61,221 bases of DNA from Halocafeteria seosinensis (taxonomy: Eukaryota; Sar; Bigyra; Bicosoecida). Of the stretch, positions 1-56,001 are shown one piece after another. The notes under the pieces are model-generated. The model searched no databases and was not told the origin of the DNA. It was given only the letters and a program-made list of their open reading frames with translations. The stretch spans positions 1 to 61,221 of the forward strand of contig LVLI01000605.1 in NCBI GenBank assembly GCA_001687465.1, in the 5' to 3' direction. Within the stretch, counting starts at the first letter, position 1. The number at the start of each line of letters is the position of its first letter. Made by a program: the position numbers and the translations under genes.

Positions 1-591
1 TCGCTCTTCTGCACAATACCCCTCTGCAAACAACACACACACATATTTAACTCGTCACTAAACTCGAAATCATCCCAAACTACAACCAATACGATTTACC
101 TTCCATAGGGGCTATCGAACTGAAAACGTCCTCTTTCGACATCGCACATGAGATTACCCCGCTGGTTCTCGGATCTCTTGAGCTATCCGTTACATAAAGA
201 CAATGCTTCCTATCAGAAGAGTTTGAGCCATGCTCCTCCAACGTTAGCAGATACCATGGATTTGATTCAAATGAAATATCTTCAATGTTTCTGCGAAATA
301 GCGAGGTCGCTCGTCCACTCATTGATTAATCAAATGGCTTCTCTGTCAGCTGTACTTACGTGACGGCATAGTGGTCACACGGGTCCTGACGAAGCCGTCT
401 AGCACTGCCGAATGCACATGCAGATATTCGCTTGGGAGAATGCGTCAAATCGATTGACTGACATGTGATTGTGTCTCCATGTGCCGGTAGCCGCCAATGA
501 GATCTGTGGTCCCGGATAGCACACCACTTATAGCACATGTACTACTGACCGACTCACGGAGGGTTCACATACTTTAAAGATGGGGGAAGAT
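1..591. repeat. Duplicated 591-bp block, copy 1
   Basis: Bases 1-591 match 1872-2462 at an offset of 1871 with about a dozen substitutions and no indel that I can see. The block contains the start of an L exon, a whole A exon, a whole B exon and the 3' end of another L exon, with their introns. The left limit is the window edge, so the true repeat may be longer. Right of 591 the copies diverge abruptly, inside an L exon. Confidence 0.95.
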
Positions 592-3500
592 TATCGAGAC
601 GTCGACTCGGACACAGTCCTTCTGCAGTAGCAACCATTATGAATCAGTTTAAGTGTAGATACCGTGTCTTTGTGTATGCCGTACCAGTCATGCCCAAAGT
701 TGACTTCAGCAAGGAAGCGTGACAAGATTCAAAAGCCACTCGCAAACGTCCAGATGCAGGCATCATCAAATATAAACACTGCATGTCATCCCCACTTGAC
801 GCAGATAGCGTTCCGACCAATTTGACTTGCGTCCATTCATTGCCGCCTCTTTTTATTGCCCTTGCATCACTGCTAACCCATCAACAAACAGTAATACGTC
901 AATCAACCAATCTCTAGCCGGAAAATGGCAACTAGCTCTACGTACATAGCGTGATAAGATAAAACATGTTCTCCGGCGACACCAAGCGAACGCCAAACCA
1001 CTCGCGAAGGAAAGTCTTGCAAGTCCAAACTAGTACAGTTGTCGTTGGGCCCGGAGGTAACATACCAATTGGCTCTGCATCGAAGCATTCTCAATTTCTC
1101 CAGAAACAACTGTTCAGAATGTTTAGGAAGCACCAAGTAACATACACGAAGCTCCTTGGCAACCGAATCTCATTTGGGGGCGGGGTCGCTGTAGGGTTCG
1201 GTGCGTCCTTGCATCCACCTTCTGCAATACGACACCAAGAATTTGACATGGACAAAATAAATCAAACAATAAAGTACAATTGCAAAAACTGACCATCCAT
1301 TGTCTTTATCTCTCCCGCGACGGACGCACCACGGCAACGCGTTACTCCGGTCGTCCGCAATTGTCCTCCCTTCCTCGTAACATATAGACAAAGCGGGGAA
1401 TGGCTGTCATTCCCAGAGTCTTGGTCTGTTCCTTTGTCTGCGTCGGTACTAAGTAGTATACGGTGCCAAGCTTCCCCATTGATGTCAATATCTTTGATAG
1501 CTCTGACAAAGCAGACAAAATTATGGCAAACTTGCTTGACGATTACGGGTCACTCACAACGGGAGACATACGTTATGGAGTACCAATGGCATCGACCGTC
1601 ACCCCCCTCAATATTGTGTATTGAACGTCCGCAGGCAAGGACGCTTTCGGCCAATTCCGACAAGTCCAGCAACTGGCATATTGTCCCATTCGACCCGTAG
1701 TTTACACTCGAGCTCCACTTCTTTCTCCTGGTTGCACATGCACAGAGTAACAGGTACAGCTCCCAACCGCTGATTCAACAAACACTATACTACATACAAG
1801 ATGTCTGGTGGCATGTTAGTCGGTGCAGGGGCAGGAGGTGGTTCTGCCGTTACCTTAGGGGTAGGATGAGGTCGCTCTTCTGCACAATACCCCTCTGCAA
1901 ACAACACACACACATATTTAACTCGTCACTAAACTCGAAATCATCCCAAACTACAACCAATACGATTTACCTTCCATAGGGGCTATCGAACTGAAAACGT
2001 CCTCTTTCGACATCGCACAAGAGATTACCCCGCTGGTTCTCGGATCTCTTGAGCTATCCGTTACATAAAGACAACGCTTCCTATCAGAAGAGTTTGAGCC
2101 ATGCTCCTCCAACGTTAGCAGATACCATGGACTTGATTCAAACGAAATATCTTCAATGTTCCTGCAAATTGGCGAGGTCGCTCGTCCACTCATTGATTAA
2201 TCAAATGGCTTCTCTGTCAGCTGTACTTACGTGACGGCATAGTGGTCACACGGGTCCTGACGAAGCCATCTAGCACTGCCGAATGCACATGCAGATATTC
2301 GCTTGGGAGAATGCGTCAAATCGATTGACTGACATGTGATTGTGTCTCCATGTGCCGGTAGCCGCCAATGAGATCTGTGCACCCGGATAGCACACCACTT
2401 ATAGCACACGTACTACTGACCGACTCACGGAGGGTTCACATACTTTAAAGATGGGGGAAGATGACCGGACGGCGGAGCCGGGGTTGGTGAAGTAACTGGC
2501 TGCTCATCTTGCCGACAAGCACCTCCTGTGGTAACCAAAAGAGTGTATAATAGTGAAACATACTCCCCGAAGATCGGTACCACCACTTACTCATCATCAT
2601 TTTGCTCGCCTTTGTAGGTGGAGGTCCCTCCCAATTGCAGTCTAACCGAGCCACTTGCAAAACGCCGTGCTCCTTTCGAAGAAAAACACAAGTGGAGACT
2701 TTCCCGTTCGGTCGGTCGCTAGAAGGAACGACTCGATACCATTTGGTTTCACCCAGAATCCGTTGATCGACGCCCCTGCAGTTACAACCGCCCAAACAAT
2801 AATGATTCAAGCTAGCTGTAGCCACGGAATTCGCGGCGCTTACTCTATAGTCCTTTCGTCACACTCTAAGCGATCGGCTCCATTCGGTAAATTAACAAAC
2901 GAACAGTTTTCCAATGTCCTTGGAAGATCCGTCAAATCCAGTGACGAACACACAGTTGTGTTCAGTGTCTTCCAGATACTCCTGCAATGTCCGCTAGGGT
3001 ACACGATGGTACACACACCATGTCCTACTGACTGAAAATATCATTAATCAGTACTTACGACAATTGACTAAGTTTATCAGCCGGTGTAGGAACTGCGCTG
3101 CTCGGAGAAGGCCGCACTGCCGTTGTCGGAATTGGCAAGGGGATTTCAGGTGAATGAGTCGGCCGCCCCTCCGCTGGACAGCCTCCATCTGAAGAAATCA
3201 GTTCCCGTCTCACAAGCTTTCTCCAAACTAATGGTATCGGATGAGATTCTTAGCGTACCTTTCATAGTCATCAGATCCTCCGCTGTGTCGAACTTGGAAC
3301 AGGACTCAACACCAGTCGTGAGATACATGTTCCTTTTCTTCTGAATGTAAATGCATCTCTCATATCCTTTCAGCTGCAGTCTATACAACTCAAATGGACC
3401 GCCTGGTTCATCTACCACAGAAAATCTGCGTATAATGGAGTCATCTACAGCAGCAATTCAATCGAAGGCACACCCCTACACGTACTCGATGCGGAATGCT

Positions 3501-6500
3501 CGACATCCATCGTGAGTATTTACGGTATCGAACGTCCCACAATAACGAATGAATCCATTCGACGCGTTTCGAAGGTCCATCGCGTAGCACGACTGGTCCT
3601 TGGATTCGGAGGGCCCCGGGACCACTCCCCATAGTCGACTGTTTCAATTGTAACAGGTTCGTGGAACCATGCGCACACAATTCACTAGCCGACAAATACG
3701 CTGTACTTACATGAGGGAACTGGGCATTTTGGGGAAAAGTGCGTTCTTTGTTGGAGTGGGAGTTTGTGCAGGACGATTGCCGTCAGAGGGAGGGGAATCA
3801 TCCTTATCACACATACCCTCTGCGAACAACCGACTAAAACACTAACTGCTACAACAAAATATTCTTCTGCAATCCATTCTTACCATGCATAGGAGACTGC
3901 GTTCTGTTTTGCGCGTCAGTCAGCAGACAAGATTCTACCCTACCGATATACCAAAATTGATTGTCAGTATCCCGTTTCATGTACATGCATGCGTCGAAGC
4001 CCAAAAATCCAAGCTTGTACCACGTCTCGCTATTCGCCAAGGTGGTTACCTCAGAGACACTGCGAGCATTTACTGCTAATGACTCAAGGCAATCGCAACG
4101 TCGGGTACGTGATACTTACTCAACAGGGAATACGACGCAGTTTTTGCCAGGTTCAGTGCCACAGATATAGACCGAACCGCTAGACGCATTTCGCAGATTA
4201 AGCGTGTCACACGTGTCACTTCGGTGGATTCTCCAGGCTCGCCTGTAATGCATCGATCAGTGCAACAACGGTTTCTCCCTGTGTATTGCTTGTAGGAAGT
4301 AAGGCACCACCCACCTCAATGACATTGGTAACTTGGAAGCAGGATTCCCAGATGGTGGCGGTGGTACCGTCGCACAAAGCCCAGCTGCAAGTGAAACCAT
4401 TGAGTATTCAAAGTATACCCCAGGGAAACTGGGTTCTGTCAACGTGTAACATACGTTGTAGTCTAAAGTAGCTATCCACTTCCTTGATTTCACAGGAGCC
4501 AAAATGCAAGCTAGGTGCACTAGTAGAGGGATCTCCCAACAGTATCATGCATCTTTCCTCATTATGGAAGCTCAGAATGTGCCACACCGATCCTCGATTT
4601 TCGATGGATCTGCAGCCAGCAAGTGTAGTTAACGGTGAAGAAACGTAACCGGTAGAGAGGGCTTACTTTACTTGTAACGTCTGACATCTGCTTGAGCGAC
4701 TCGTTTCATCTTTGATCTCATTGCAGTACTCTACCCAATGCCCTATTCTTGCTTCCGTCATATTTATGGACCCAAAACAGTGGTCATGATCAGAATCCAA
4801 CAGTTTCCAAGTTTTTCTGCAATCGGATTGGAGTCCCATGCTGGTGCTTCACTTGCAAATAGCAAAACGGCACATACAGGAAAGGATGGGGCAAATTCCT
4901 CCTCTCAGATTTTCTTTCTTCGGGGGTAGAAGCCGGTGTTGGGCTATATCTCGACAGACTTTGCGGAGCAGGGGTCGGTGTTGGGCTATGTCGTGATGGG
5001 AGTTGCGGACGACCAGTGGCGCATCCGCCCTCTGTGGCACAGAAAAATCTTTTGAATAAGCATTGTGGCATGAGCCTTTGGGGTTCAGTTACACCCTACC
5101 ATGCATGGGTTGCACCTTAGTGGCGTCCTGAACTGTGCAATAGCTAACGAAACCTCCGAANGAAAATCTACCCGCCGACTCCTCTCGAAACTGCATGCAT
5201 CTCTGCATTCCCCGAAATCCAAGGTTAAAGATGAGCTCACCATTCGTGCGAATAATCCTCGTGGAACTACTGCAGGGGTAAGGATCATGTGCGTAACACG
5301 AAGACTACATTGCCCGGACAGTATCCAACTTACTCGACGCGGAAGCGCTGACAGCTGTCTCGACGGCCAGACGTGCAGTAGCTGACACGACCTATAGAAA
5401 CGTTTCGTAGGTCTACCGTGTCGCAAGTTTCTCCTTCCCCGAATCCCCAAGCGCGTCTGCAATGTAATTAAGATACCAAGACAGCGACATTAGAACGAAC
5501 AGTCCACCGGCATGTGCTGTGAATTCGCATGCATAACGCCACTTACTGTAGTGTTTTCGGTGACTCTGACCCAGGGTTTCCAGATGGTAGCGAGGCATTC
5601 TTGCATTCACCTTCTGTAAAGCAACAGATCAGACGGCAGTTTCCAATTTGCGGCTAAATTGCATGCACTCAATTTGGATTTAAACAACGCACGTGACATC
5701 CTCATAAAGAAGTTGAGATCCATTTTTCGGATTTCACATGGGGAAGGGAAATAGAATAGCTCCTGAGAAATTACCATGCACTTTTCCTCATTCCATATGC
5801 GCATGATATACAGTGGCGTGTTGCTAACGGTTGTCGTGCGAATGGATCTGAGAAACGACATAGAGACAGCCACAATGGATGATAACGGGTTATGGTTGCT
5901 ACGTGCAAACCAGCACTTACGTTACAAAGAGCATCCGACATTCTTTCATGGTAAAGGCGTCAGTATGCATCCAAGAGCAGTATTTTACCAACGGCGCCTC
6001 CGCTAAATCCACCGAGGCCGAGCATGCATCTCCTTCCGAACCCGAAAGTCTCCATGATTTTCTGCAGTATCCCAGAGTACAGAACTATGTGAGTCCCAAG
6101 CCACTGTACACGGTCGACAGCACGTACCGAAGCGAATGGGGCAACCTTTCATCCTCATCTTTGGTGGCCATGGGGCTCGGCGTTGCCGAGGGAGTCTCCT
6201 CATGATCACCCTCGCACCCTCCTTCTGGAACCATGCAACCGAACACTGATACAGCTACCCATGCACTTACTACTGTGCCAAATCAACTGACGTACCTATC
6301 ATATGTCTCAGTGTGTCTAGCTCTTCCACCCTTGATGAGCAAGAAGTCACCGGTGTGGCTCGATAGATCACCGTTGCGTGACCTGTAGTATCTTCTCTCC
6401 ATTTCTGCTCAATGTAGATACATGCGGCATGGTGCTTCAAGAATAACTTGTACCACCCCAATTCTCTTTCAGCGACGGGCCTGCAAGATCTCAGTGTGTC

Positions 6501-8996
6501 AGCCACTTAAGTATTCAGAGTGGTCTACTCAGTACGACAACTTACTCCACCCTCAACATTCTGCATCCACCGCTAGTCATGTTGTCCAGATCCCCGCAGT
6601 ACGTCATGAATCCATGCGTTACATTCCGGAGATCCATCATATAGCACGTGTTCTTCTTATTAGAGGACGACTTCCGAAGCACACCCCAACGCCGACTGCA
6701 TATGTTATACGAATATGGCAAATCACAAGCTCTAGTACTTCAATGGCTACGTACACTAGCGATCGAGGTAACGTTGTATCCCCATCGCGATTTCCGGTCG
6801 GAGTCGGCTGAGGACTGCGTTTTGGACCGGGACCATCCTTCTCACACCCATCTTCTGCATATCCAAAACCACACAAACGTGGAGCGTTACGTCGCATGGG
6901 TCCGACCGTAGCCGTAGACACCTTACCGTGCATAGTCATTGAAGCTTCTAGATTATTCAACTCAGCCAAACAAGACGCTACTCCGGTTGTCCGATAGCTC
7001 ATTCTCTCATTTCCCGAATTGGTGTCTCCTCGTCTCTGCTCAATGTAAATACATCCATCGTGTTGCGTCAATGATAATTGGTACCATTGCGAGCCTGACG
7101 CCGATTTATCGTACACCTCCGATCTGAGTACAGAGTACAGTTCACAACCTCCTATGCTCACACAAACATTCTCGAGATACCTCCGGAATTAAAACTTACT
7201 TGACGCTAAGCATTTTGCATTTATCTTGCAAATCGATCCGGTCGGACTTGCCGCAGTAGAGCATTTTTCCACTTGTGACATTCCGCAAATCCATCACAAA
7301 ACAGGACTTCTCATCGCCGGAATCAGATCCACGAACGACACCCCACTGACGGCTGCAACAGGTAATAAATACAACAGTAGACATAGGCAGTGTGCGGTGA
7401 CTCCAAAGACGCATCATCGGCGACATACGATAGGGAACGAGGCAACGTTTTATCCTCACGTCGTGTCTCCGTCGGAGTGGAGACTGCTGGTGGTGTGGGG
7501 CTGTTCTTAGTCGGCAGATCCGGTTTAGGAGAGTCACAACGGCCTTCTGCAGGGAGAACGCATAAGAGCGCATTTCAACGTTCGTCTGCTCAACCGGTTC
7601 TTACTTTGCATGTCAACTAGTTCGGTTTCCGCACGATCAAGAGAACAATGATCTAGGTGTCCAGTGGCAGAAAGTTGGACCCCGTTGGTTTTTATGTAGA
7701 TGCATCCATCGTTTTGGCTAAACGCAAGCTCATACCAGACTCCATCTCCCCGGTGAACGACCTCGGTGCTACTGTAGCCACAAGTCTCCTAAACGATTTG
7801 GATATGATAGTGCCTTGCACTTCACACTTACGTTACCCGAAGCAAATCGCACTCGCTATGGTCGCAGTAACGCACAAACCCGCGAGAAACATTCATCAAG
7901 TGTAGGGTGTCACACGTCTCCTCAGTTTCGAGGCTCCACGCTTGTCTGTGAGGCGAAACGATTACATCCGTACAATGCATTGCAAGCGGATTCCTTTCAT
8001 TGCAGTTGAGGTGTTATGATATGACCGGATACTTACTGCAGTCGTTCAGGCAAATTAGAACCTGGGTTTTCTGAAGGGAGAGGGGCCTTTTCGCAAACTC
8101 CGGCTGCAACTAGTTTGGCGTGGAAATGTTGATAACGTAGGCCTACAAGGGAAGACTTAGAAAGAAACGTACGCTTCATTTGCATTCCACCTTCGGTGTT
8201 GTCAACGTTGCAAGTGGAAGACGGTCCGTAGAACACCGGCTGACTTCCATTGAAGCCAGATTCCAACAGCAGCATACACGTTTCTTCATTCTGAAATCTC
8301 AACACTTGGTGGACCCAGTTCCCCTCGCTTTTGGAATTAACAGACCTGACAAGGAAGGAGATACGAGTAGGATAAACGGAGCATTCATTGCGTGATGGCG
8401 CTACTTACTTTACCGCGAGTTCCTGGCATTCCATTACGTCCGCTTTCCGCTCGCAATACGTCACGGAGTTCCCGGCTTTAGCTCCATGCAAATCCACGGA
8501 CGCAACGCAATCTTGATCCCGATCTTTCGATAGTTTCCAGGTTTCCCTGTCGTTGAAAGAGAAGGAAGGCACAAGTTATCATCCTTCATAAAGTCGGTTC
8601 ACAATATCTTTCTTTCCGCATGATCTAGCAACTTCCCAACTCCTCCAGCGGTGACTACCGCCTACCATTCCGGCGATTTCCCCCCTAGCATTTACAACAC
8701 GCAATTGGCTGATTCTGTCCCTTTAATCTTCCCCACTGTGCTATGCAACCGTAAGAAAGCACATTTTCCAGCCGCCAACATTCCGGTCCGGAAACTGAAA
8801 GGGTTTTTTTGTTCCCTTTACCAGTCCCCTCTTGCGGCTTTCGAACACTTGTTCGCAAAGCAAGCCTGCGCTCAGGGTCTATGATGTCTTATTTGTACGG
8901 GACCACTTACCGAAACCGCCGTGGAAGCCCCCCTTCGACCTCGACACCTAGCCTCGCGGACAAGAAGAGCAGAAAAAACACTCGAAGTCGCTGCAT
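1..8996 (-). CDS. Secreted modular Cys-rich repeat protein, at least 44 exons; 3' end beyond window
   Basis: I do not recognise this family. Exon 1 (8911-8996) starts at the ATG at 8996 and encodes a signal peptide (MQRLRVFFLLFLSARLG), so the product should enter the secretory pathway. Exon 2 (8696-8794) encodes a short Cys-containing segment (KCAFLRL). Then 14 three-exon units follow, each made of exon types B, A and L. B carries a Trp and usually three Cys around an (N/D)LRN-like core. A has the pattern WYxL...CIYI...TGVxSC and ends MxG. L starts EGxC and continues as a Pro/Thr/Ser-rich linker. All joined exons form one open frame of 5886 nt (1962 codons) in the window, and the last L exon runs off base 1. 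Introns are 57-91 nt except the first two (116 and 149). An extracellular matrix, wall or adhesion role is inference only. The N at 5161 lies in an A exon. The exon structure is well supported; the function is unknown. Confidence 0.8.
1872..2462. repeat. Duplicated 591-bp block, copy 2
   Basis: This is the partner of bases 1-591. Both copies keep the reading frame and splice sites. Differences include the base just before the A-exon acceptor junction and a few missense changes in the A and B modules. Divergence is far lower than between any other modules of this gene, so the copy is recent or was homogenised by gene conversion. Confidence 0.95.
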
Positions 8997-10735: not shown

Positions 10736-13700
10736 ATGGGGAACGCGCAGATAAAGTCCCATGAAGCGTACGAGAACGGCAACTACGAGGAAGCGCTGAA
10801 ATACATCGAGTATGACATCGATAAACATGGGGCCAACGCCAGCAACCTGAGTGATAAAGGCGTCTATCTCATCGAATTGGACCGTCGCGATGAAGCGATG
10901 CGGTTCTTTGATCAAGCTTTGGAACAGGACCCCAATCACCTGGAATCCTATCAGAAAAAGGCATCGTGTCTTGTATCACTGGGACGGGAAGCCGAAGCGG
11001 AACCCGTGTTCGAAAAGACGTTAGAGTTGGACCCGGACAATGTGGAGGCCATGTACGGCCGTGCGTACTGTCTGATGAAACGAAATGACCATGAGAATGC
11101 AAATCGGCAGCTGGAACAAGTTCTGGAAAAAGAACCAAATAATAGTGGAGCACTCAACAATCGAGGCAAGTTTACGTTGCCCCGCAGTTTCCGGCCTAGT
11201 TATCCGAAACTTGCTTACTTACATTTGCTGTGAATGCAGGTTATTGCTTGATGCAAACGGGTCAACTCGACGAATCCATTAAATACTTTGACCAGGCCAT
11301 CAACAAAAACAAAAAGTATACGGAAGGTAAGTCCAACCCGAGACTGCCAGTGCATTCTTGCTTAGCGTCTGTAATATGTTCTTTTGCCTTGGTGGAGTAC
11401 AGCAATAACAAATAAAGGGACTGCTTTATCCTGGAAAGGAGAGCACAAAAAAGCAATCGCCGAATTTGACAAGGCCATTAAACTGAGCCACGGGAGCAAC
11501 ATTAATGCATACTTAAGCAAAGCAACTTCGCAGATGCGGCTGGGGAAGAACGAAGATGCGCTCCAGACTCTTGAAGAAGCTCGGAATTCAAAGAATGTGA
11601 AATCAGCATCTACGGTGCAAATTTTATTGCGCATGACATCATGCTATTCGCATCTAGAGGACTACGAAAAAGCGCATAAGACTGTGAATCAAGTATTTGT
11701 GCTAGACCAGGACAACAAGGAGGCTTTTCTGAGACGCGGCATCATCCAGTACCATGAGGGAAAGTTGAAGGAAGCCTTATTGGATTTTGAAGAGTGTAGA
11801 AATTCCAGCGGTTTGGCGGCTCATTCGGAGTCCTGGATTGGAAGGTGCAACATGAAGCTCCGTCGCTACCGGGAAGCGTTGGACAGTTTCGAAAAGGCCG
11901 CACTGTTGAGTGATCGCTTCCCTTGCTTTTATGAGAGAGGCTACGTACTGTTAAGATTGCATCAGTACAACGAGTCCATCGACCAATTGAATGAAGCACT
12001 GAAAGATGATAGTCTAGAAAATGAAGGGGAGGTGCACTGCTCCTTGGCTTTGGCACACAATGCCATCCACGAATACGACGAAGCCATTAGGCATGCAAAG
12101 GAAAGTAGAGAGTTTCTAAAGAATACCGCAGACCCGCAGATAGCACTAGCATTAGCGTTAAATCGGCAGGGCAAATACGAAGAGGCACTAACAGCTGTGG
12201 ATAAAGCCCTAAAGAATTCTGCCAATAATATCTGCGCATTGTCCGAAAAGGCATATGCGGTAGCCGGTTTGAAGAAAGAAGAGTCACCGGAAGCAGAAAA
12301 GTCTGTCTCGTTTGCCACAGAAGAATATGCGGATGATACTGAGCTTGCATATGTTTTCTCCAATATCTCATTCGTGAAATATCAAAGCGGAAAGCCGGAG
12401 GAAGCTGTACGCGCTGCCACGCGTGCACTTCAGTACCAGCCTGACCTTGATTGGGCATACTTTTATCGCGCGCTAGCTTCGTTCCACCAAGGGAACCATA
12501 AAGATGCCCTACAAGATTTTGAACGGGCCCGGGAGATGGGGCTTCATACCAAGGAGTCATTGACGCAGGAGGGGATATGTCTTTACCAAATTGGAGAATA
12601 TGAAAAATCCTTCACCACCCTCAAGTCGGCCGTCGACGAAAACGAAACCTGCATAGATGCAAACCATTATATAGGATTGATTCATCTGCGCAAAGAGGAA
12701 TTCCAACAAGCGCTCGATACATTTAATAGGGTGCTCCAGGCCGATCCGAATTTTGATGATAGCCGTTTGGAACGAGGATACGTCTGTGTCACACTGCATC
12801 GTTTCCGTGAAGCTATCTCAGACTTTGAAACAGTTTTTGATTGCCATACCACCAATGTCAGGTTGCTGGAGAACTACGGCGCCGCGTTGAATGCCATCGA
12901 AAACCCCGAAGAAGCGTTGGAGAAGCTTGGAATGGTCAGGAAATCCGGAATGGAAGGAGCGTCCTTGTCAACGCAGTTGTACATCGCATATTTTGCACTG
13001 GGTCGTTTTAAAGAGGCTTTCATTGAAATCCAGAAAGTGCTTGAAAGAACTCCTGATGACGATCTTAGTCTTTGGCGCCGGGGCCTGGCCCTGTTGGAAC
13101 TCGGTCGCCTGAACGACGCTATCGATTCCTTCATGGAAGGACTTAAGCTGAACAGTAGTAACAAAGGCTGTTACGTAGGACTTGGTAGGTGCTATAACCA
13201 ACTAAGCGAATATACCAGCGCTCGAGAGTCCCTAGAGCGTGCCTTGGAGCTTGGTGAAGATTCGGCGAAATGTTACTTTGAACTTGGCAAAACGACATAC
13301 TTTGCTCGTACTTTTGGAGAGGCACTTGTGTTTCTAAATAAAGCACTAGAGCGACAGAGTACTGGTGAAACATGGTTTTTCCAAGGTTTAGCACTTATGC
13401 AGATGTATCGACATGGTGAAGCAGCTTCTAGTTTCAGGAAATCTATCGAATTGACACCGTCCGAACCACTAACTTGGGTACATTTGATACATTCCCTCCT
13501 CAAGGAGCGCGAATATTCAAGGGTTTTGCGCACCGTGGAAGATTTCGAAGCGAGATTTGACTTAGAGCAACAGTTAAGCCCCGCGAATTGTGCAAGCATC
13601 CACCGCTGTAAGGCTGTCGCCCTCTATAACCTGGGTGAGTTTGCTAGAGCAAAGAAACATCTTGACCTAACTCTCTCAATGAACGATAGCGACGCTGAGG

Positions 13701-16700
13701 CGCTTTTCGTCCGAGGGAACTGTCACTCGTTTGAAGGAGATCACCGTGGTGCTCTGGAGGACTTCAAGTTGGCGAAAGAATTAGATCAAGGATACCCATG
13801 TTTGTTTGAACAGGCCACTGAACTTATTTTCTTGCGCAGATACGAAAAAGCGACAGAAATCATGGATGTGGCTATCAATACTGATGACCGAACAGGAGAG
13901 AGCTATGCGTTGAGGGCTCGGGCGAAAAACGGATTGCATCACTACGAATCTGGCAGCGAGTTCGCCGATGAGGCGATCGCATTGCTTCCACAGGGCTCTT
14001 GGGGATACTATGCTAAGGGATACGCTTTGAATCGACAAGGAGCGTACAACAAAGCACTCGAAACTTTGAATGGCTGTCGTTCCCAAATGGCCCTTTTGAA
14101 ATCAGAGAGAGCATTTGCGCTAGCGGGGCTGAAAGACGAGTCAGCTGTCTCCAAATCGGAAGAAGCAATTAAAGAAGAAAAGGAGCCGTTTATTCTCTCC
14201 CAACTGTATAGCAACCACGCATTTGTGCTCTTTAGTTTTGACCGGTACGATGAAGCAATAAGTGCTGGAACCAGGAGCATTGAGCTTGATTCAACCATTG
14301 ACACCGCTTACCATTATAGAGGTATGTGCCACATTGAATTGGGCCACCCGGAGGAAGGATATCAGGACATGATCCGTGCACACAAAAATGGTATGCCTCA
14401 AACCGATGATCTGTCAGTGCTGGAAGGACAGGCCCTCTTTAATCAGACCCGCTACGAGGAAGCCCTAGAAGCCTTTCAGCGAGCGATAGAATATCAGGAG
14501 GACAACTTCAAAGCGCAGTACTATTGTGGATTAATTTGCATGAAGCTTTGTGAATTCGCCAAAGCATTGGACCACTTTATGAAGGCAACGAAAATCGATT
14601 CAAACTCAGTCGATGCTTTTGTTTACCTAGGGTTTGCACAACTGCACTTAGGTTACACGTCGGAAGCACTCGAAAGCGCCCATACTTCGCTCAAATTGGA
14701 TTCTTCCTCTCGCGGATACCATTTGAAAGCTTGCTGTCTCCAGTCACTCGGTGAACTCCAAGGAGCCGTCAAATCCTTCGATCACTCCCTGCAGCTTGAC
14801 AACAAACAACATGAAGCATGGAGGAAACGGGGCGAATGCTATCTTCAGCTGGGAGATGTTGCAAGCGCTGAGGGATCGCTACAAAATGCCCTCGAACTTA
14901 AATCCAACGATCCAAATGCTTTGAGTGCTATGGGAGACGTACTGTGCGAGAAAGATGATCTGGAGCGTGCTTTCCAATATTATAACAAGGGGATTGACTC
15001 CGATGGAAGTCATTCTAAATCTTACAGAGGGCGCGGATATTGCAAAATGCAGAATGAGCATTTTGAAGCGGCGTTAGACGACTACCTCGTCGCCCACGAG
15101 CTTCAGGAAAGTAGTCCACCCAGATTACACTACTATATGGCCTTTTGCCTTAATAAGTTGGGACGATATCATAAAGCAATTTCGCTTTATCAACACTACT
15201 TGCGATTGGAGCCTTGGAATTTCCGTGCCTGTCGTGACGTAAGTTCCACCCCTTTCAAAGCGATTTTCTATTACCAGAAATCTATCTACTAGGGCAAATT
15301 ATGCAGCTCACTCGGTGCTTACACGCCACAAGCCAATATGGGAGCGCATTGAAATATCATGACCATTGTATTGAGCTCAAGCCTGAAGATTACAAGTCAC
15401 ACCTTGCACGGGCACAGTGTTTACTAAAACTGGAGAGATACTCAGAGGCCTTGGAATCAATTGAAGCGACATTAGAATTAAGACCTGCTTTGACAAGCGC
15501 ATTAAGAGACAAAGGTGAGATTATGCTTTCTTGCTCGAGCAGGCGGCGATGTATATAACTCAACGCTTGGTGGAATGCAGCGGAATGTTACAACAAGATG
15601 GGCAGATATGAACACTGTATTGCGACTGCCGATGCTGCTCTGAAAGACACTCCAGAAAACTCAACGTTGTGGGGGCTTCGAGGTGAGAATGGTTGCTGAA
15701 TGATATGGGAATGTCAATGCTGCCACTTGTCACCTTTTGCTTGCTGTCCAGCAAATGCCTTATTCTTCCTCAAACTATACACCGATGCAATTACTTCTTT
15801 CGATAAAGCTCTCTCCTTCCGACCAGAGTTTGCGGAAGCCCTTAGTTAGTACAACTCAAAGAACTACTGGTAAAGCTGTATTAAAACGTAGTGTCATGAC
15901 TGATCGCGCAGGCAATAAAGGTGCTTGTCTCAATGAACTTGAGCAATTTGATGACGCGTTGGAATGTCTGGAGAAAGCGGTGCGGCTACGGCAGGATTTC
16001 GCGGAAGCGTATAGGTAAGAGAAGCTAGCATGTACCCTACTTCGGTTGTGGGCTTATCTCATACTAATTACAGTAACTTGGGGAATACATTGATTGGATT
16101 GCACGAATACAATGAGGCTTGTGCTACCTTGGACAAGTCCATTGCCTTAAATGATAAAAACCGTAAGTACCCCTGTGCCTCTTCCGTATTCTGTGGTCTT
16201 AACGAGCGCGAACATCATTTGCCATTGTATTCGCAGCGAATGCATATAATAACAAGTAGGTTGTGCTGCTAGTAGGGCCTACATTGATACTTTGACACTG
16301 GCATCCTATCATTTCGCAGAGGCAACGCACTACTCAATCTGAAGGATTATAAGGCTGCTATTAAGAACTACGATAAAGCTCTAGAGCTGAATCCGAATCA
16401 GCCCGTAGTACTGACCAATAAAGGTAGGACCCGCAAATAACATGCTTGAATGCTCATATCTAACGTGCCTGCGTTCTTCGGTCTCAGCATTTTGTCTTGT
16501 GGAACTTGGATGGTTCATCCGCGTTATCGAGGCAGCAGATAAAGCTTTAGAGATAGATCCCAACTACACAGAGGCATACGGTATGTACCTCCCGAGATGC
16601 AAAACAAAGTTTTTGGTGTACATTGTTCTGCGGGATGTAAGTCCAGGAATAAAAGGTGTCGGGTTGAACGGGATTGGAAAGTACGAGAAAGCGATTAATT

Positions 16701-27918: not shown

Positions 27919-30900
27919 TTACAGCATCCCTTGAGCTTCAGCGAGTTTCCGATAAAGTCCGTCTGGCTTTTGCACGAGTTCACTGTGAGTGCCCGTTTCG
28001 CAAACGGTTCCTTCATTAAAGACATAGATGCGATCAACATTCTGGATTGTGCTTAATCTATGAGCAATGATGATGGTGGTGTAACCTCGGGCCTCAGCAA
28101 GGAAGCGGTCTAACGCAGCCTGTACTACCTTTTCACTGGTAGAATCCAACGCCGATGTCGCTTCATCCAGCAAAAGTATTTTCGGTCTTCTAATCAATGC
28201 CCTTGCAATGGCGACTCTGCGGGAAATACAATACATTAATTTTTCCCGCATAAACAAGACAGGACGCTACGAATGCAGTGACACGACGTACCTTTGCTTC
28301 TGTCCCCCAGAAAGTTGGTTTCCACCATCTCCAACGTGAGTCTGGAAACCACTCGAAAACGAGCTGATGAATTCCTTCGCATTAGCGTCTTCGGCTGCTT
28401 TCTCAACATCAGCTTCAACTTTCATCCCTTGACCATTGGTAAATTCATTCTCTTCGGAAGAATCTACCGGCGCTCCAATACCGGCAGCTGCTTTTCCTTC
28501 TCTTCGCCCATAAGCGATGTTGTACAGAATACTATCAGAGAAAAGCTGTGGTTCTTGGCTTACAAGGCCCATTTGCTGTCTTAGCCATGCAATATTATGT
28601 TCCTTGATACTCTTCCCGTCGAAAATGACATCCCCTTCTTGACATTCGTAAAATCGTTCGAGGATTTGAATGACCGAAGACTTACCAGAACCCGACGGAC
28701 CCACGAACGCCACGGTTTCTCCAGAACCGACACTCAGACTGACTGATTTGAGTACCTGGATGTCAGGACGCGTGGGATAGGCAAGATTGATGCCCTTCAG
28801 TTCGACGTTTCCTTGGAAAGGCTCAGGTGTTTCCATAGTAGCCAGTTTATCAGCGTCAGACAAGGCATCTACTGCGGGCTCTCTATCCAGTAACTGGAAT
28901 ATACTACGCTGAGCTGCGGCGGCTTTAGCCTTGTCAGTAGCCATTGTGCTAAATTGCCCTGCACTCATCGACCCGAATGCAATCGCGAAGAATACCCGCA
29001 ACATCTCCTCAAAGTTGAGCCTGTCCAAGTCGATGAAGACTGCTCCCAGGTAGAACACGAGTGCATACATAGCAAAGAGTACAAAGTGGCCAAAAGACCT
29101 TCCAACGGCAGTGACGGTCACGCCTTGTCTTGCAGCAACAAATGGCTTCTCAAGAGCCTGACAAAAGCGAGAGAAAGTAAACTCTTGTAGATTAAAACTG
29201 TGAACTGTTCTAATATTGGAAATGCACTCTCCGGTTATTTGGCCAGATTCGTTTCGCTCTTTTTCCAGGGAGGCGCTAGCTCTCTGTATCGCTTTTGTCT
29301 CCACTATTCCAGACAGCATGAAGAATGGCCCGACAGCGATAGTGACCAATGCCAGCTCCCAGGAACTGACAAACGCAATAATGAGGGCAGTAACAAGTGC
29401 TCCCAGAGCCTGACACGTTACACCGATCTTTTCTCCAACAGCAGCCTTCATAAGAGCCGCATCTGTTGCAAGGCGATTTGTAAGCTTTCCTGGCGCATTA
29501 TCAGGGTGGTCAAAGAAGCCGATGTCTTGACGTATCACTGCTTTGAAAGCAGCTAAGCGCATCCGCTTGGTCAGTTTTTCTCCACTGTATTCGAAGAGGA
29601 AAGAGAACGCAGTGCTGGCTCCGAGGGATAACACAGCGATGCCAATGAAAGCACCCAAAATAATTTCTGCTTCCTCTTCAATTTCTTCATTGTCATTCAG
29701 GAAGAAAACATTCAGGATACGAGCAAACAGTACCGCGAAAACAGGCATCACAGCTCCCTGTATGAGAGCAGCAAACACTCCGACGATGATGCGACACTTC
29801 TCCGGACGCTGATACTCCCATATCCGCCTTGCAGGTACAGCAACTTCAACAGGTTCTTCAGTTTCAGCATCCTCCTCATTTGATGTGGCTGTGGCTCCTT
29901 CGGGCTTTGACGTATCTGCATCTGCTGTTTTAGTGATGTTGTCTTGAGGTGCGGTTTTACCGACACGCTCACCTCCTGTCTCCTCCTTGTCCGTATTCGA
30001 CTGATGGGAGTACAAATCCTTATAGATACCATCAGTTTTGGAAAGAAGGTCTTGGTGAGTGCCTTCCTCGGCCACCCGACCGCCATCGAAGACAATGATT
30101 TTGTCGCAATCTTTGATAGTGCTCAATCTGTGAGCAATGGAGACAACTGTTTGACGAGAATCAATGGAGGAAGATAAGTTTTCCAACGCCGCTTGTACCT
30201 GACGCTCGCTGTCGGTGTCGAGTGCGGAGGTGGCTTCATCCAACAGAATGATCCGGGGTGCTTTGAAGATTGCTCGAGCAATTGCTATCCGTTGCTTTTG
30301 CCCCCCAGACATTTGCGCTCCTTTTTCTCCCACTTCCGTATCATAACCGTCTGGTAGTTGCATAATGAAGTCGTGAGCAAAGGCGCGTTTAGCAGCCTCT
30401 ATGACTCTGTCCTTGATGGCTTCATCGCTTTCCGATACACCGATTGCGATGTTCTGGAAAATTGAAGTCGAAAAGAGTTGCGGTTCTTGACTGACAATCC
30501 CAAGCTGGTCTCTCAACGCGAAGGTATCAAAGCTGCCAATGTCTTTGCCATCAATGAGGATCTCGCCACTGTCTACATCGTAAAACCGTTGAAGCAACGC
30601 CATGCAAGTAGACTTACCGCAGCCCGAAGCTCCTGCTACTCCCACTCTGGTTCCGGCAGCAATATGGAAAGAAACATTCTCAATCGCGGGCCTCTCGGGG
30701 CGAGAAGGATAGGTGAATGTAACATCTTTAAATTCTACATCTCCTTTAATACTGTCCTTGCTAGTTCCTTTTCCTGGAAGAATGGTGCCAGCAGTATCAA
30801 TGACTTTGAAGATCTTGGTAGCTGAGGACTGGGCGGCGAAGAAAGAGCTCAAGGTCGGCGCGACTTGTCCAAGACCTGCAGATCCGATGAATACAGCAAA

Positions 30901-32278
30901 AAAAATTTGCATAACAGTTCCGCCTGTAAAGCAGCTATCGGGAATGTTGCCACCACTACATTCAGGATCATCTTCTCTGTCCTCGATAATAAGTATGGCT
31001 CCGTAGTATAATCCAACACCATAGGCCAAGAACATGGAAAAGTTCATAAGACCCATATTAATTCCTTTATATACTCCAGCGTAAATACCTGCTTTTTCAG
31101 CTTTTTCGATTTCGGTAGCATATTTCTGAATTTCCAATTGTTCGCCTCCAAACGCTGCCACGGTCCGGATATTGGAAATTGCTTCAGAGGCATATGACCC
31201 CGCCTTAGCGTATGCTCGGTACATCATACCTCCAGCTTTCATCATAGTCTTTCGGAGCATTGCAATGCTCCCAACGACTAAAGGCATACATGCTAGTACG
31301 ACGAGAGTAAGTTTCCATCCTTGAATGAACCCCACGAGTAGCTGTTGAAAAGAAGGGGAAGTACACATTGCCGAGGGTAAGTGTCTAAACCGAGGAGGCG
31401 AGCACATCACTTACACCTGCAATAAAGGTGGCAATGAGGCGAATTCCGTCCACCAGTTGCTTCCCCATTGCTACTTCAATTTTGGGAATTTCCTCAGCCA
31501 TTGTGGAAGTGAGCTCATTTGGCGGATGGGTGTCGATCCAAGCCATATCCTGCGAACCAAGAAACAGCGAAGGTTTGTTTCCATCCGGAGCAAGAAGAAC
31601 AAGAAAGGGGAGGGGGGAGTATTCACCCAAGACTGCCATTGCCGTACCTGATACAAGACACTCTTGAAATAGGCTTCCTTGATCTTTCGTCCTTGGGACA
31701 CGGCGACGTTTTCAATGCACATAATCTGCACGACGAATGAAGGATGTTTCAACAGACTGTCAGCCATGAATGCTCATATACAGCCGGTGAACTCACTGAG
31801 ATGAAAGAGGCAACAAAAGCTCCAATGGCCAAGTAGAAAAACAAAAGGGAGCTCTCTGACACCGCGTCCAGCAGATCGGTGCTATTGTTGAAACTGCATG
31901 GGGACAATTCACTATCACAGCCCAGGATGGCACCACCACACGCAGACTGAAGGGCTCACGTACTTGTCGAGAAGCTCTCCGAAAATGAGAGAAAAAAGCG
32001 GGAGCGTGGAGCCGAACATAGCTGAAAAAGAGACTCCAATCCACAGCAAGACGAGCTCCTTGGTCGTCGCAAATCGGAATAATCGTGTAAACGAGATAAC
32101 TTCGCTCTCTTTCTTTTCCTTGTCCGCCAGGCCCTTCGTCTCGGCCGAGGGGCCTTCTCCAGGGGCACCCGTGGCAGAACCGTCATCGGCATCGTCTCCG
32201 TCTGCCAGAGGCTGTCGGGAGGAAGGTGAGTGTATCTCCTCGTCCTCCCCCACGCCCATTTCGATATCATTGTGATCC

Positions 32279-33322: not shown

Positions 33323-35088
33323 ATGGCATCCGGCGGTGGTAGTGGAGACCCCAACGAAGCCAATAATGGCAGTGGCGGGACATCCGCCTCCTCCCCAGCT
33401 ATCCCTATGCACAATATAAAGAGCTGCACGGTACGTTGAATATCCATTCGAGGGCTTTTATGGGCTATACACGCTTATTTTGTATGTATGTGCAAAATTT
33501 TGGATGTCAGATAACCTCCTGTGTGACCCGGTATGAGGATCAGAAGAAGCAGAAGAAGAAATACACGGCATTTGTGATTGAAATCCAGACCTACGGAGGC
33601 CAAAAATGGTCCGTGGAGCGCCGATATCGCGAGTTTTATTCATTAAATCAGACTCTAAAGCAACGATATGCTGAGCTCAAACTGTTCAAATTCCCGCAAA
33701 AGAAATGGTTCCGCTCGTTTGCGTCGTCCACCGTCGAGCAGCGAAGGAAGGCCTTTGAAGCCTACCTACAGGAATTGCTATGTTTGCAACCACGACCAAC
33801 GGAATTGAACAATTTCCTTGAAATTACCAAACATATTTGGGGGAACAAGGAGTCCGATGGACAACCAGTAGATCAAGTCACGCAAGACTATCAGAACCGA
33901 ACGCAGGAAGAATCCCTGGAACGCTTGAAGCGCGGTGAGGTGGGCATTGAGGACTTTGAGCTCCTTAAGGTGCTTGGCAAAGGAAGCTTTGGCAAGGTAT
34001 TCCTTGTCAGGTTAATACCAACCGGAAAGATATATGCGATGAAAGTGCTAAAGAAGCAAGAAGTTGTTCGGCGAAAACAAATTGAGCATACGAAAGCAGA
34101 GAGAAGAATTATGGGGGCTATTGATCATCCATTCATTGTATCCCTTCGCTTTGCGTTTCAAACAGAAGATAAACTGTACATGATTACCGACTATTGTCGC
34201 GGCGGCGAACTGTTCTTCCACTTGAAGAAATTTCGATCCTTCTCTGAGGCAATGGTTCGCTTCTTTTCCGCGGAACTAGCCGCAGCGCTGCAGCATCTGC
34301 ATGCATTCAACATTGTCTACCGAGACCTGAAGCCCGAGAATGTACTGCTAGATGAAGAAGGACATGTACACTTGACCGATTTTGGTCTCTCAAAAGATGA
34401 TGTTGCGGACCCCAAGGGAGCGACAACGTTCTGTGGAACTCCCGAATATCTAGCTCCTGAGATGCTTTTGAATCGAAAGTCGAGAGAGGGGTATGGCAAA
34501 GCGGTGGACTGGTGGAGCTTAGGAACGTTGATGTATGAGATGCTTACTGGATGGCCCCCGTTTTACAATAAGAACCTGCGTACCATGTGTCAGCAAATTC
34601 TCCACAGTGATCTTCATTTTCCTGCTAACTTGCAATGCAGTGATGAGGTGAAGGATTTGATCACAAAGCTGCTCAGCCGTGATCCGGCAAGCCGGTTAGG
34701 AAACGAAACGAGGGAAATACCGAATTTGGATGGTGAAGGAACGAGAATCGTTGATGGAATGGATATCCGTTCTCACCCATTCTTCAGTTCTATTGACTGG
34801 GACGCGCTGGAGAGGTTGGAAGTCACTCCACCGTTCAAACCAGTAACGAAGGCTGAGGACGACTACTCCAATTTTGATTCAACCTTCACTGCGGCACCTG
34901 CCGAACTGACGCCTCCTGAACCATCGCAAATGGGGGGTGATGACGACACATTTACTGACTTCCAATATGCTGACCAAGGCCACGTGGTAGGAGATGAAGA
35001 TGACCAAAACTCTGATAATGATGAAGAAGAAGAAGACCAGCCGACGACCCCCGCAGAACCGAAGGAAGAAGAAGAAGAAAAAGAGTGA
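33323..35088 (+). CDS. PX-domain AGC-family Ser/Thr kinase (SGK3/S6K-like), 561 aa
   Basis: Exon 1 is 33323-33430 and exon 2 is 33511-35088, joining to 1686 nt in frame. Residues 1-36 are Ser/Gly-rich. About 40-140 form a PX domain (RRYREFYSL; VEQRRKAFEAYLQELL), a phosphoinositide-binding module that targets endosomes. The kinase spans about 185-450: Gly-loop GKGSFGKV, Lys in YAMKVLKK, catalytic YRDLKPEN, DFG in TDFGLSKDD, and T-loop TTFCGTPEYLAPE with the PDK1-type Thr. A C-lobe extension has a turn-motif-like LTPPEPS, and the hydrophobic motif is FTDFQY (about 517-522), where Gln replaces the usual Ser/Thr. The C-terminus is a Glu/Asp-rich acidic tail. PX-AGC fusion is known for animal SGK3 and occurs in some protists; orthology is not claimed. 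Likely role: growth or trafficking signalling downstream of PI3K lipids. Confidence 0.9.
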
Positions 35089-35313: not shown

Positions 35314-38300
35314 TTACACGTCTTTCGCGCCCTTTTGACCAAATTCTTTCTTCGTCTTGGTGGCTACTCTGGCACGGTTTTCCTCAGTTTCTACGATAAG
35401 TCGCTTCCTTTCTGTACCCAGTTGACTCTCACGTAGTTTGTCCGCAATATTTTCTGTCTGCAATTTGTTGGATGCGCTCTGCTGAACGATTTTAACTCTG
35501 CTACCGCGACTTCTTTGGGGCTTCCACTCTTTTCTTTCGGGTAGCTCTTCCTGTTGACTCCGGAATCTGCTTGATCGTCGTCGTGACCCTCGTCTGTCTT
35601 TCTGATCATGTGTATGGACAGCTTGGCTTTGATACGCATTGTTGTTTTGTCTCGGTCGGTAAAGAGATTCCCGGGGGACTTGTGTCTCGTAATGATGTGC
35701 TGCTGGTTTTGTAGCAGGTTGGTGATAGGTTGCACCCACCGCACGAGCCGGTGAAGTAGCGCCAGCTGATGTTACGTCGCTACGTGTGTTGGTCCCTTGC
35801 CTTTGCTGCTGCACACTATGTTCGCTCCACATACTGCTAGAGAATCTCCGCGATCCACGTCTATCAAAAGAAGCCGCTCGCCCGCCAGTAATCGTACTTC
35901 CCTTGCCGGCATTGTGAGATGACTGGAGCGGATGCTTGGACACCTGCTTCTTGAAAGGCTGCAGTCTATCCGCAACCTTTTGCACATCCATGCTCGAGAG
36001 TGCGTCATTGGAAGTATCACCCTCACTTTGATTCGCGGTGTTACCCATACGGGAAAATCCGCCGTCCGCAGCCAAGGGATTGTCGTGCATTTTCACAGTG
36101 GACCGTCGAATGGTTGTGCCAGATGACGCCGTTCTAGCCTGCCGGGAACCACCCCGTCGAGAAGACCAATGAAGTTTTTCGGTACTCCGGTTGAAAGAGC
36201 TCACAGAGTCTGCCAACATTGTACCTTGCTCCGTATGGGCACTGTGGGAAGTTTGCTCGCTGAATGAGCGACGTGAATTACCTTGATTACCCGAGCCGCG
36301 GCGGGATCTCGAAGCGAAAGGATTGTCATACATTCTCATAGAGGATCCCTGTTGGAACAGTTCGTGCCTGTCGGCTCTGCTGGAGCCTTTGTCTGTACTG
36401 ACAATTGCTGCCGGTTTCCTAGTCTGAGAGCCGTAAGAGTCAATCGAATTACTTTGCCCCTCCTCTTCCGGTTTCTCTTCCAGAGAATTGTTGGCTTTCC
36501 TCACTTGCATAGGATTGACATCCACACTGAATGTTTGAGTCGACGAGGCATCCTTACTTCCGGCGGATTTTTTTTGCTTGTCCAATACTTCGTTAAGGCC
36601 CTGCATTAAGTGGTGCACTTTCCGCATGACCAGAGTGTCAAAGCTGCGTGATACCCGCGGCGTGTAGTAACCAAGCAGTACAATCGTAAACACAAGAAAG
36701 ACAATATGTACAATCATAACCGCACAATAAACATCCGTCCCCGTTGATCCGCTAGACTCAGTTCCGATGAATCCTAAAGAGCTAGTGACCATGGAGCATA
36801 AAATAAGTGCGGTATGTAAACTATACACAGGCTTACTCCAGTAGGGGCGAAAGTAATGGTTTTGGAAGTAAGACCATGTGAGAACTAGTAACGTCAATGA
36901 AAACTGACCTGCACTTTTGGAGATCCACAAACCAATTATTGCTAAGAACAGCTTCCGAAACACCACTGTAACATCCCACAAATATCCCATCCAACGAAGT
37001 GTATACCCCCCACTTAATTTCCAGAAATTGATGCGTTCGGAAAGCCTCCTGAGGGAATAGTACTTCCAAGTATAGTAGAGTCCCACCCCTAGAGGGTATC
37101 CGACCACCAACAATATTAAATAGGCAATTGCCAAAGAGTGCAAAATGGCAAATTGGGCACTAGATATTTCGAGCTCCAGATCCAAGTGCGATCTTGTGGA
37201 ACCACGTATCGGTTGTGGATAAGTTTTCAAGCTAGCCAGAGCAGTTTCGGCGACAGAAATATACAGGACGTTCACCATACCCAATATAGACCAAAAGGAT
37301 CTTCGTAAACTTGCCGAGATCAGACGTTGTCCATCCTGCAACCCCACCGCTATTACTTGCCCTACCAGTATCACGACCAACAAGGCAACAGGGAAGAGCA
37401 AAGCTGCCAAGGCGGACTGGTACTGTTCCATACCGAACAAGCATTCCCACGAAGCAGTCTTCACTGGGTTCATTGTAAAAACTGAAAGAAGATATGGCAG
37501 TAGAGTTGTAACTCCATCAAGCGGCGAATAGTTCATCGAATTTAGAAGCCATCCAATTTGCATGTAGTCGACAAGGATCAAAAGGACGTGCTGACGACAC
37601 AGCGAGCGCTGCAGTGATAGATACGTAGAATCCTCGGCCTCAGTTTGACCATTACCTTCGGGGCGTTCCCCTTCAGTCTTCATATACGTTTGAAGACGTT
37701 GCTTCGCCATTTGCCAAGCCAATTGCTGGTGATTCGGGTTGATTGCTTCCAAGAGAAATTGGTGGTCTCCTTCCAATGTTACAGGTCCGACCCGAACGAT
37801 ACAACCGACAGTAAACCCGAGCACCACAACCAACATCAATAGTAATAATACTAAATTAGTGAAGCGACTCCAACAAGGATGGCAGCGTCCATCCCTTCCT
37901 TTGGAGTAGTTTGATCGGCAATTTCTGCAGACGGGGCCCGTGTATCCACCTGAACACTCAACGGCGAACGATGTACTGTTGACTGAGCAAGCCTCAGTCG
38001 GTGTGCATCTATGGAAAATGAAATCGCTCGGCGAATGATACAAGATTTTGACCACGTCATCTCGAGGATTTCGACTATAGCTACAGCGTTCACACCAATA
38101 CCCGCTCTTCATTCTCAAAATCCCATTCAGGCATAGCAAAGCTCCTTCGTTACAGGGAACACATTCACTCGAGTTTGATACCGACGAGTATCCTGTTGGA
38201 CAAGCCTGACAGGTGAACAGTTCGGGAGCCTGAGGTTGGAACTCCTCCGAGTACGGTGCCGAATTCATCCGCTTATACCCTCCCTTACATATGCATGCTC

Positions 38301-42567: not shown

Positions 42568-42945
42568 ATTGCACAATGCTATAAAGAACCCCCAGAAACA
42601 GCTTGACGACCGGTGGGAGTTTCTTTGCCGGGCCCGTCTCGCCCTCAAATATGCCTGCAAGGCGTATACTGTGCGTGAATAAGAACACGCACTTTTTTCG
42701 ACAAACTCGCGCTGGGGTCAAAATCGTGGAATAGTGCTCAATGAGGTGTGAACCTTCACTGTAGAAGGCTTGTTCTTTCTTCTGCTGACTGTGACGCGAC
42801 CGTGACTGGTTTGGATTGGATGACGTCGCTAAAGTCCCGTGTGTTAGACAATTTCGTACACACTATAGCTTACGCGCATTGTGTCAAAATTAACCATTCT
42901 TAATGAGACAATTCTTGTCTGCATTTCATTTCACTGCTGAAATGC
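42568..42945. other. Intergenic between divergent surface-protein genes
   Basis: This lies upstream of the giant receptor-like gene. No recognised gene; it probably contains that gene's promoter. Confidence 0.4.
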
Positions 42946-43128: not shown

Positions 43129-43618
43129 ATACAGGAATTAAACAAGCCAGGTGGACCTACTATAAAGCAAGATTCCTTCGATTTTTGTGATAATCTTATA
43201 CCTGTAATTGTTTTCGAACACTGCTAAAATTGGAATTAAAAGAAGCCGTGTGTAGTCAAAGCAAAACAAAATTCTGCGTGCCTCACTTTGTCACTGTTTG
43301 CGAACACACATTTCACAATCTAGCGTAGCATGTAGAATAGATTATCTAAGGTAGAAGCGATACTAGTGATGCATTGACAAAGTTGCTCGTTGCGAGCGAC
43401 GAAATGAAACGCTCCCCAGAGCCGACTTTCAATCCTTGGAGATCACTGTGTTACAACATAGATAGTACACACATTCCATTATGAATTTCCATAACGAACG
43501 GGTAGCTTTTCCTTATTCCCCTTATAAAGGATTACACCTGCATGTACGCCTTCCTTCCCTCTCTCTCGTGACTTGGTGTATCCAGCAGGAAGCGCTGAGA
43601 AAACCCAACCAAACGAAC
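43129..43618. repeat. 5' flank of tandem gene copy 1, homologous to 46292-46760
   Basis: Recognisable blocks recur in both flanks: the TTAAACAAGCCAG region after the stop, a block around TTTCACAATCTAGC, one around GACGAAATGAAACGC, and the last 60 bp before the ATG. The copies differ by substitutions and small indels, so this is a tandem duplication unit including promoter sequence. Confidence 0.85.
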
Positions 43619-55479: not shown

Positions 55480-56001
55480 TTTCTACAGTTGACCGACAGG
55501 TATGTGATAATAGACTGTATAGATCCCCGATTACTGCTCTTGGTGCCTCGGGATAAATTCGCAACTATAATGATGGTATTTGAGACTCCACCTAGAAAAT
55601 ACCAATACGGTTTTCCCATTAGTATCTTTTACTTACGAATTATGTTCACTTGAGTGCTTGGCTTGACTTTGCATCTCGCCGGATTCGCCGCGAGAGTTCG
55701 CTTCTCCGGATAAACATTTCTTCGAGCCATAACATCAAGAAATGATTGTCGCCTCTCGAGCTCCTGCCAGATGGGTTTTGCAGTTGGCTGATATCTCATG
55801 ATTATAGAGCTACTAGTGCCACCGTATGAGAGGATAGAACAGCTCATTCTCGTCCGTGTGATGCCCGGTTCGAACTGGATCAGGAGCATCAGAATATTGC
55901 ACTTAAAGTCGTATTTGCGGGGGAGTCAGCTGCCGTCTTCGGGAGGTATTTCACCCCTTATTGGATTATACACACGTTCCAGTCTCACTTTTCGCTTTAG
56001 T
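55480..56001. other. Intergenic between TBC gene and TRM1
   Basis: This contains the possible small minus-strand gene at 55629-55799, listed separately, and otherwise nothing recognised. It presumably carries the TRM1 promoter. Confidence 0.4.
55629..55799 (-). CDS. Possible small protein of 56 aa
   Basis: An ATG at 55799 opens a frame beginning MRYQPTAKPIWQELERRQSF and ending with a TAA directly after VNIIRK. It is basic and without a hydrophobic segment. The composition looks protein-like and it occupies the gap between two genes, but I recognise no family. A GTAAAAG donor-like site overlaps the stop, so it might be part of a spliced gene. Low confidence. Confidence 0.25.
   Translation of the reverse strand: MRYQPTAKPIWQELERRQSFLDVMARRNVYPEKRTLAANPARCKVKPSTQVNIIRK

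Follow-up and report, generated by a model that had tools for sequence, protein, structure and literature searches.

An array of six-cysteine units encoded by a gene of small exons in Halocafeteria seosinensis and its predicted continuation into a REJ-domain membrane protein

The stretch of DNA analysed here (the window) is the 61,221-nucleotide contig LVLI01000605.1 of the Halocafeteria seosinensis assembly GCA_001687465.1, referred to below as C383. An original prediction, made from the letters alone, had placed at positions 1-8996 a large gene composed of a run of small exons, and the presence of such a gene on the minus strand is confirmed. This gene (gene 1) has its start ATG at 8996 (-) and continues past the contig end at position 1, where the frame is still open, and window 1-8996 is consequently its 5' part only. 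Gene 1 heads a tandem group of three paralogues, which have 14, 11 and 6 units, respectively, and whose products are, judged by their domain matches, REJ (PF02010) proteins.

Gene 1 and its exons in the window

The gene 1 model consists of a first exon (S) followed by 14 B, 14 A and 14 L exons, together 43 exons that form one frame of 1929 codons without a stop, the last L exon being truncated by the contig end. These numbers replace the signal exon with 43 further exons and the approximately 1960 residues proposed originally, of which the signal-like first exon is retained. All 42 introns are of the GT...CAG type and measure 57-364 nt (median 69). The model is a chain built by dynamic programming from the ATG at 8996 under a phase rule (B 2 to 2, A 2 to 1, L 1 to 2); a longer first intron had to be allowed, as the chain otherwise ended after one exon. 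A search of this kind scored 3864.5 on the real strand (42 exons). The highest score was 907 among the 11 other pieces (9 kb each) or strands of the window that served as controls, and 790 among 100 dinucleotide shuffles. A plain coding-potential search did not recover gene 1 as a whole; the original prediction had called the gene easily missed.

Transcript support comes from P0001, a 1445-residue EukProt protein derived from the transcriptome shotgun assembly contig GECG01014871.1 and found with the first 1112 residues of the model. Along its entire length, P0001 aligns with the corrected model, from which it differs by 30 mismatches and a single 1-residue indel. It matches through exon B11 and uses 31 of the 42 modelled introns (counted from 30 alignment jumps, one of which covers both introns flanking exon A5), supporting the proposed splice sites; 11 introns are without confirmation, and exons A11 to L14 are without transcript cover. 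Although labelled a complete open reading frame (ORF), P0001 ends in ...YAVT, a read-through into the GTAAGT after B11, and this end could reflect intron retention, a shorter isoform or a break in the assembly at units 11 and 14, which are nearly identical. Exons A13-L14 are also open in a second copy on another contig (C518), where, of 197 codons, 8 show synonymous and 5 show non-synonymous changes, a pattern that would be expected of coding sequence. The splice sites of four exons were adjusted by eye, the start of B10 (2981) and the end of L10 (2444) being set from P0001; the end of L13 (573) was placed by analogy, and the A12 donor, GTCAGT, and the signal peptide were assigned by eye.

All of these exons lie on the minus strand. 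Exon S (8911..8996) provides the ATG, a signal-peptide-like start (MQRLRVFFLLFLSARLGVEVEG...) and a phase 2 donor, and matches P0001 residues 1-28 with 1 difference. The transcript-confirmed units with six cysteines include unit 1 at 8037..8546 (B 8546-8409, A 8345-8173, L 8103-8037), unit 2 at 7429..7945 (B 7945-7832, A 7771-7605, L 7546-7429), unit 3 at 6755..7352 (B 7352-7200, A 7123-6927, L 6854-6755), unit 4 at 6128..6695 (B 6695-6546, A 6480-6296, L 6224-6128), unit 5 at 5547..6061 (B 6061-5921, A 5847-5693, L 5613-5547), unit 6 at 4878..5456 (B 5456-5334, A 5269-5100, which contains one N, L 5031-4878), unit 7 at 4315..4816 (B 4816-4667, A 4609-4455, L 4384-4315) and unit 9 at 3059..3638 (B 3638-3486, A 3425-3259, L 3188-3059). 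Equally confirmed by P0001 are unit 8 at 3711..4242 (B 4242-4120, A 4059-3884, L 3819-3711), the P0001 counterpart of which was the first unit to be folded, and unit 10 at 2444..2981 (B 2981-2844, A 2775-2591, L 2525-2444), for which P0001 supplied B and L splice sites. Unit 11 at 1798..2374 is confirmed for B (2374-2231), while A (2161-1971) and L (1894-1798) follow from the phase rule and the 97% identity to unit 14. Unit 12 at 1146..1727 (B 1727-1572, A 1502-1294, L 1221-1146) is without transcript cover, and its B exon is matched by unit 8 of gene 2 (39%, E 0.0175). Unit 13 at 573..1074 (B 1074-946, A 869-685, L 621-573), also without transcript cover, has lost Cys 2 and Cys 3, and its A and L exons are open in the C518 copy. 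Unit 14 at 1..503 (B 503-360, A 290-100, L 23-1, the contig end) has an open second copy within C518:20749-21634, and it is on C518 that the gene continues.

Probable continuation into a REJ exon and two further paralogues

When the genome was searched with P0001, exon B11/B14 was found once more, close to the C518 end. C518:20749-21634 shares 96.3% DNA identity with window 1-878, and the match reaches the C518 end. On C518, the last L lies in a 1602-codon open stretch (stop to stop), and this last exon encodes a Ser/Thr/Pro stalk, a REJ domain (PF02010; 91 bits, E 8.5e-26, Pfam curated cut-off 25, best stretch 373-803) and a single hydrophobic segment with basic residues after it. From the contig overlap we infer that the gene 1 array joins this REJ exon across the contig break. 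Because the gene continues into a REJ exon with one hydrophobic segment and basic residues, a type I membrane protein is predicted as its product, in place of the secreted one originally proposed; the description as a mosaic likewise found no support. A weak and unconvincing match of the gene 1 last exon is to one PDB sequence (E 0.29).

Gene 2 lies on C518, downstream of the gene 1 REJ exon, and follows the same exon-phase rule. Its transcript protein, P0002 (GECG01011501.1, 2959 residues, 94% identity over the 2000 residues searched), covers gene 2 whole in a single chain, with a signal-like start, 11 units, a REJ domain and one transmembrane (TM) segment. The presence of REJ domain and unit array in one protein is thus given by transcript for gene 2 and by contig overlap only for gene 1. 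Gene 3 has its first exon, which resembles that of gene 2, on C518 and the rest on C241, these contigs overlapping by 842 bases at 98.6% identity; six units could be read, and no transcript was found. REJ scores elsewhere in the family are 109.9 bits for the gene 2 last exon and 110.2 for P0002 (cut-off 25), and 95.8 for C241 in the genome search. A hydropathy scan (19-residue, threshold 1.6) detected one segment each in P0002 and in the gene 1 and C241 last exons. For P0002 and two of the last exons, Pfam at E 1 listed neither GPS nor PLAT, although a diverged GPS-like stretch might escape. P0002 also has weak, unconvincing matches to seven PDB sequences (E 0.07-0.44) and to Pfam ERO1 (E 0.019) and DUF7128 (E 0.92).

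In searches of its own genome, unit matches were confined to C383, C518 and C241, but such searches barely bridge the diverged units and more may exist. REJ domains above the cut-off occur on seven other contigs (C27, C376, C267, C211, C515, C514, C582), and the stretches fetched from these gave no match to the unit profile. A six-frame unit-profile search of 26 sources (25 loci plus the remaining part of the window), with default HMMER filters and with several loci lacking full 5' ends or having only weak matches, returned one match (L034, which is gene 3 on C241) and left 25 without. The REJ genes on the seven contigs form long open frames with differing N-terminal parts, comprising Ser/Thr-rich tracts, glycine-rich repeats and Cys-rich stretches, and on C515 several REJ genes lie close together.

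The adjoining ends of C383/C518 and C518/C241 overlap by about 850 bases (96.3% and 98.6%) and are unmerged, as in the assembly of a heterozygous or mixed sample; the overlapping contigs could represent alleles, strains or repeats. In the C383/C518 overlap, exons differ at 13/592 sites and introns at 12/286. Because exons differ less than introns, purifying selection acts in this overlap; the comparison does not demonstrate positive selection. Between genome and transcript, 30/1445 residues differ for gene 1. For gene 2, 59/1096 array residues differ versus 10/1508 in the last exon (Fisher p 8e-14), the array portion being P0002 32-1130, which spans units 1-8, part of unit 9 and the linkers, and the genome side being partly hand-spliced.

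The remainder of the window holds other genes. Two adjoining long ORFs (43481-46291 and 46761-50390, both +), probable paralogues, have ELAPOR/TNFR-like, ephrin-receptor-like Cys-rich and NCD3G matches, and a 2448-residue open frame (35314-42660, -) has no Pfam match at E 0.001. Further ORFs encode a TPR repeat protein (11384-15292, +), an ABC transporter (28267-31410, -), a PX-kinase (33436-35088, +) and a RabGAP-TBC protein (53846-54739, +), and a tRNA dimethylguanosine methyltransferase (55798-58057, +) is spread over two overlapping frames, presumably with an intron or frameshift between them.

The repeat unit and its predicted fold

The units of gene 1 are, as originally described, 14 diverged copies of a six-cysteine unit of about 110 residues, separated by Pro/Thr-rich linkers. 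Exactly six cysteines are found in 13/14 window units, unit 13 having four, and in 20/21 transcript-backed units. The exceptions, unit 13 of gene 1 and unit 9 of gene 2, both lack Cys 2 and Cys 3. As both have lost exactly these two residues, a Cys 2-Cys 3 bond is suggested, and the two units may descend from one cysteine loss. Most pairs of gene 1 units differ at 60-80% of positions. Three unit types recur (1, 5, 7; 2, 6, 8; 3, 4, 9), which suggests block duplication within the array. Units 11 and 14, in contrast to most pairs, are 97% identical, and with their introns they form a direct repeat of about 604 bases (window 1-604 and 1872-2474, 97.4% identical), a recent unit copy or conversion. 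The one-exon-per-module arrangement stands; the folded unit appears to be B, A and the start of L, and one exon therefore codes for about half a domain. Whether B and A are homologous halves is unproven, profile comparison giving probabilities of 0.1 and 0.3%.

The view that the unit belongs to no known sequence family agrees with the searches, none of which gave a convincing match. For the 21 transcript-backed units, Pfam at E 10 showed no family in more than one unit (best E 0.014). The 12 Pfam families listed include no lipocalin-type model, though HMMER filters drop weak matches, and by Pfam the modules are not C-type lectins. Unit profiles gave no match to PDB sequences at E 10, and NCBIfam none at E 1. 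Beyond the genome itself, two protein searches returned one protein each at E 1 (among 5115 and 7980 scored candidates), and both matches, P0001 and P0002, are from one transcript set. The three last exons as query matched 0/7981 at E 0.001, a result of little weight as the search words probably derived from low-complexity linker. These protein searches used length limits and short-word seeding, from which distant relatives may escape. No relatives were found with P0002 patterns in prokaryote genomes or with P0001 patterns in viral contigs.

By structure prediction, each unit is predicted to form an eight-stranded, antiparallel, up-and-down barrel resembling that of lipocalins and calycins, a group including bacterial lipocalin-like proteins, fatty-acid-binding proteins (FABPs) and avidins. 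In the model the coding sequence of the barrel would be split in two by the B/A intron, which falls inside strand 4. Solved folds closest to the unit include FABPs, CRABP, nitrophorins and bacterial lipocalins, with Tp0751 and APCDD1 as the best structural matches; a viral fold library gave nothing with E <0.001. A GxW in the first strand is a lipocalin motif. The first Trp of the unit, in the predicted first strand, is invariant in 21/21 aligned units, and a Gly two positions before it is present in 2/21 (units 1 and 11 of gene 2) and in three gene 3 units.

A putative surface receptor

REJ proteins are familiar from the fertilisation of animals and from polycystic kidney disease. The REJ domain defines the SpREJ family of sea urchins, of which SpREJ1 binds a fucose sulphate polymer of egg jelly; positive selection is reported for the lectin domains of SpREJ1-3, and one or two TM segments are present in SpREJ1 and 2 (PMC1934368). 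A REJ protein of the brown alga Ectocarpus is a candidate male-gamete gene (PMC4700764). The Halocafeteria proteins are similar to the SpREJ family in having a signal peptide, repeated Cys-rich modules of a recognition type, a REJ domain, one or two TM segments and a multigene organisation (PMC1934368). Unlike SpREJ1-3, with their C-type lectin domains, they carry a predicted barrel unit without a sequence family, in 6-14 copies coded by half-domain exons, and have no GPS by Pfam. A REJ domain in a large ectodomain is also shared with polycystin-1 of the PKD1 family and with Ectocarpus Esi0130_0068, which possess a GPS and polytopic, channel-like membrane parts (PMC1934368, PMC4700764); in contrast, one TM segment and no GPS/PLAT match at E 1 are found here. 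With a single predicted TM segment in each of P0002 and the gene 1 and C241 last exons, the proteins are not 11-TM polycystins of the PKD1 family.

By analogy, the proteins may be type I surface receptors for recognition or adhesion that work like SpREJ1, with lipocalin-like modules in place of lectin domains. This explanation is regarded as somewhat probable, a judgement that applies jointly to the gene family, the layout, the barrels and the receptor role. The family plan would comprise a signal peptide, 14, 11 or 6 six-cysteine units on Pro/Thr/Ser-rich linkers, a stalk, the REJ domain and further ectodomain, followed by one predicted transmembrane helix and a short cytoplasmic tail. Sequence or transcript directly shows the unit repeats, the REJ domain, the tandem order of the genes and the exon structure, the latter for 31 of 42 introns in gene 1 and for the entire chain in gene 2. 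The barrels would be the binding heads, which the REJ stalk keeps at a distance from the membrane like the lectin domains of SpREJ1, and an array changing faster than the stalk would be in keeping with a partner that varies (mate, prey or self).

Other roles have to be weighed against this receptor role. The early end of P0001 and its label as a complete ORF would fit a mainly soluble secreted array, the frame ending in the intron after B11 to give 1445 residues with neither REJ domain nor TM segment. This is improbable, as a transcript assembler would probably break off at units 11 and 14 with their 97% identity, the exons go on in frame beyond B11, the coding pattern of A13-L14 is kept in the second copy, and the gene 2 transcript protein reaches its TM segment. 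The array might instead be a structural coat, wall-anchoring or spacer component that contributes length and bulk and has no specific ligand, a notion consistent with the high copy number, the Pro/Thr/Ser-rich linkers, the variation from 14 to 11 to 6 units between paralogues and the link of REJ to elasticity in polycystin-1 (PMC1934368). However, the divergence between most pairs of units exceeds the need of a plain spacer, and a cytoplasmic tail follows the TM segment; neither point is decisive, and a structural role is considered unlikely, if less so than a soluble product. Binding of small hydrophobic molecules within the barrel, which is common among lipocalins and FABPs and would serve to scavenge or carry such molecules on the cell surface, is suggested by the FABPs, CRABP, nitrophorins and bacterial lipocalins among the nearest folds. 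The unit, at about 105 residues, is however short, and function does not follow from a shared fold, avidin and Tp0751 being of the lipocalin fold class with other roles; such binding appears as improbable as the soluble array.

A further and decidedly tentative extension of the receptor reading is that the unit defines a new domain family, a six-cysteine calycin barrel in two exon-coded pieces, in which fixed intron phases would let units multiply, and that a fast-changing array of it on protist REJ receptors is an independent parallel to the lectin-REJ sperm receptors of animals. Among the papers listed on the REJ domain with stramenopiles and on tandem lipocalin domains, none reported such an array, a thin check. 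REJ receptors as such are known; what is new here is the repeat domain, which has no name and is coded by exons of about half a domain each. The unit is small and expressible, which makes its fold and ligand testable. The family illustrates how exon multiplication builds up receptor arrays in a protist, and demonstrates that gene finding based on coding potential can overlook a gene with over 40 small exons.
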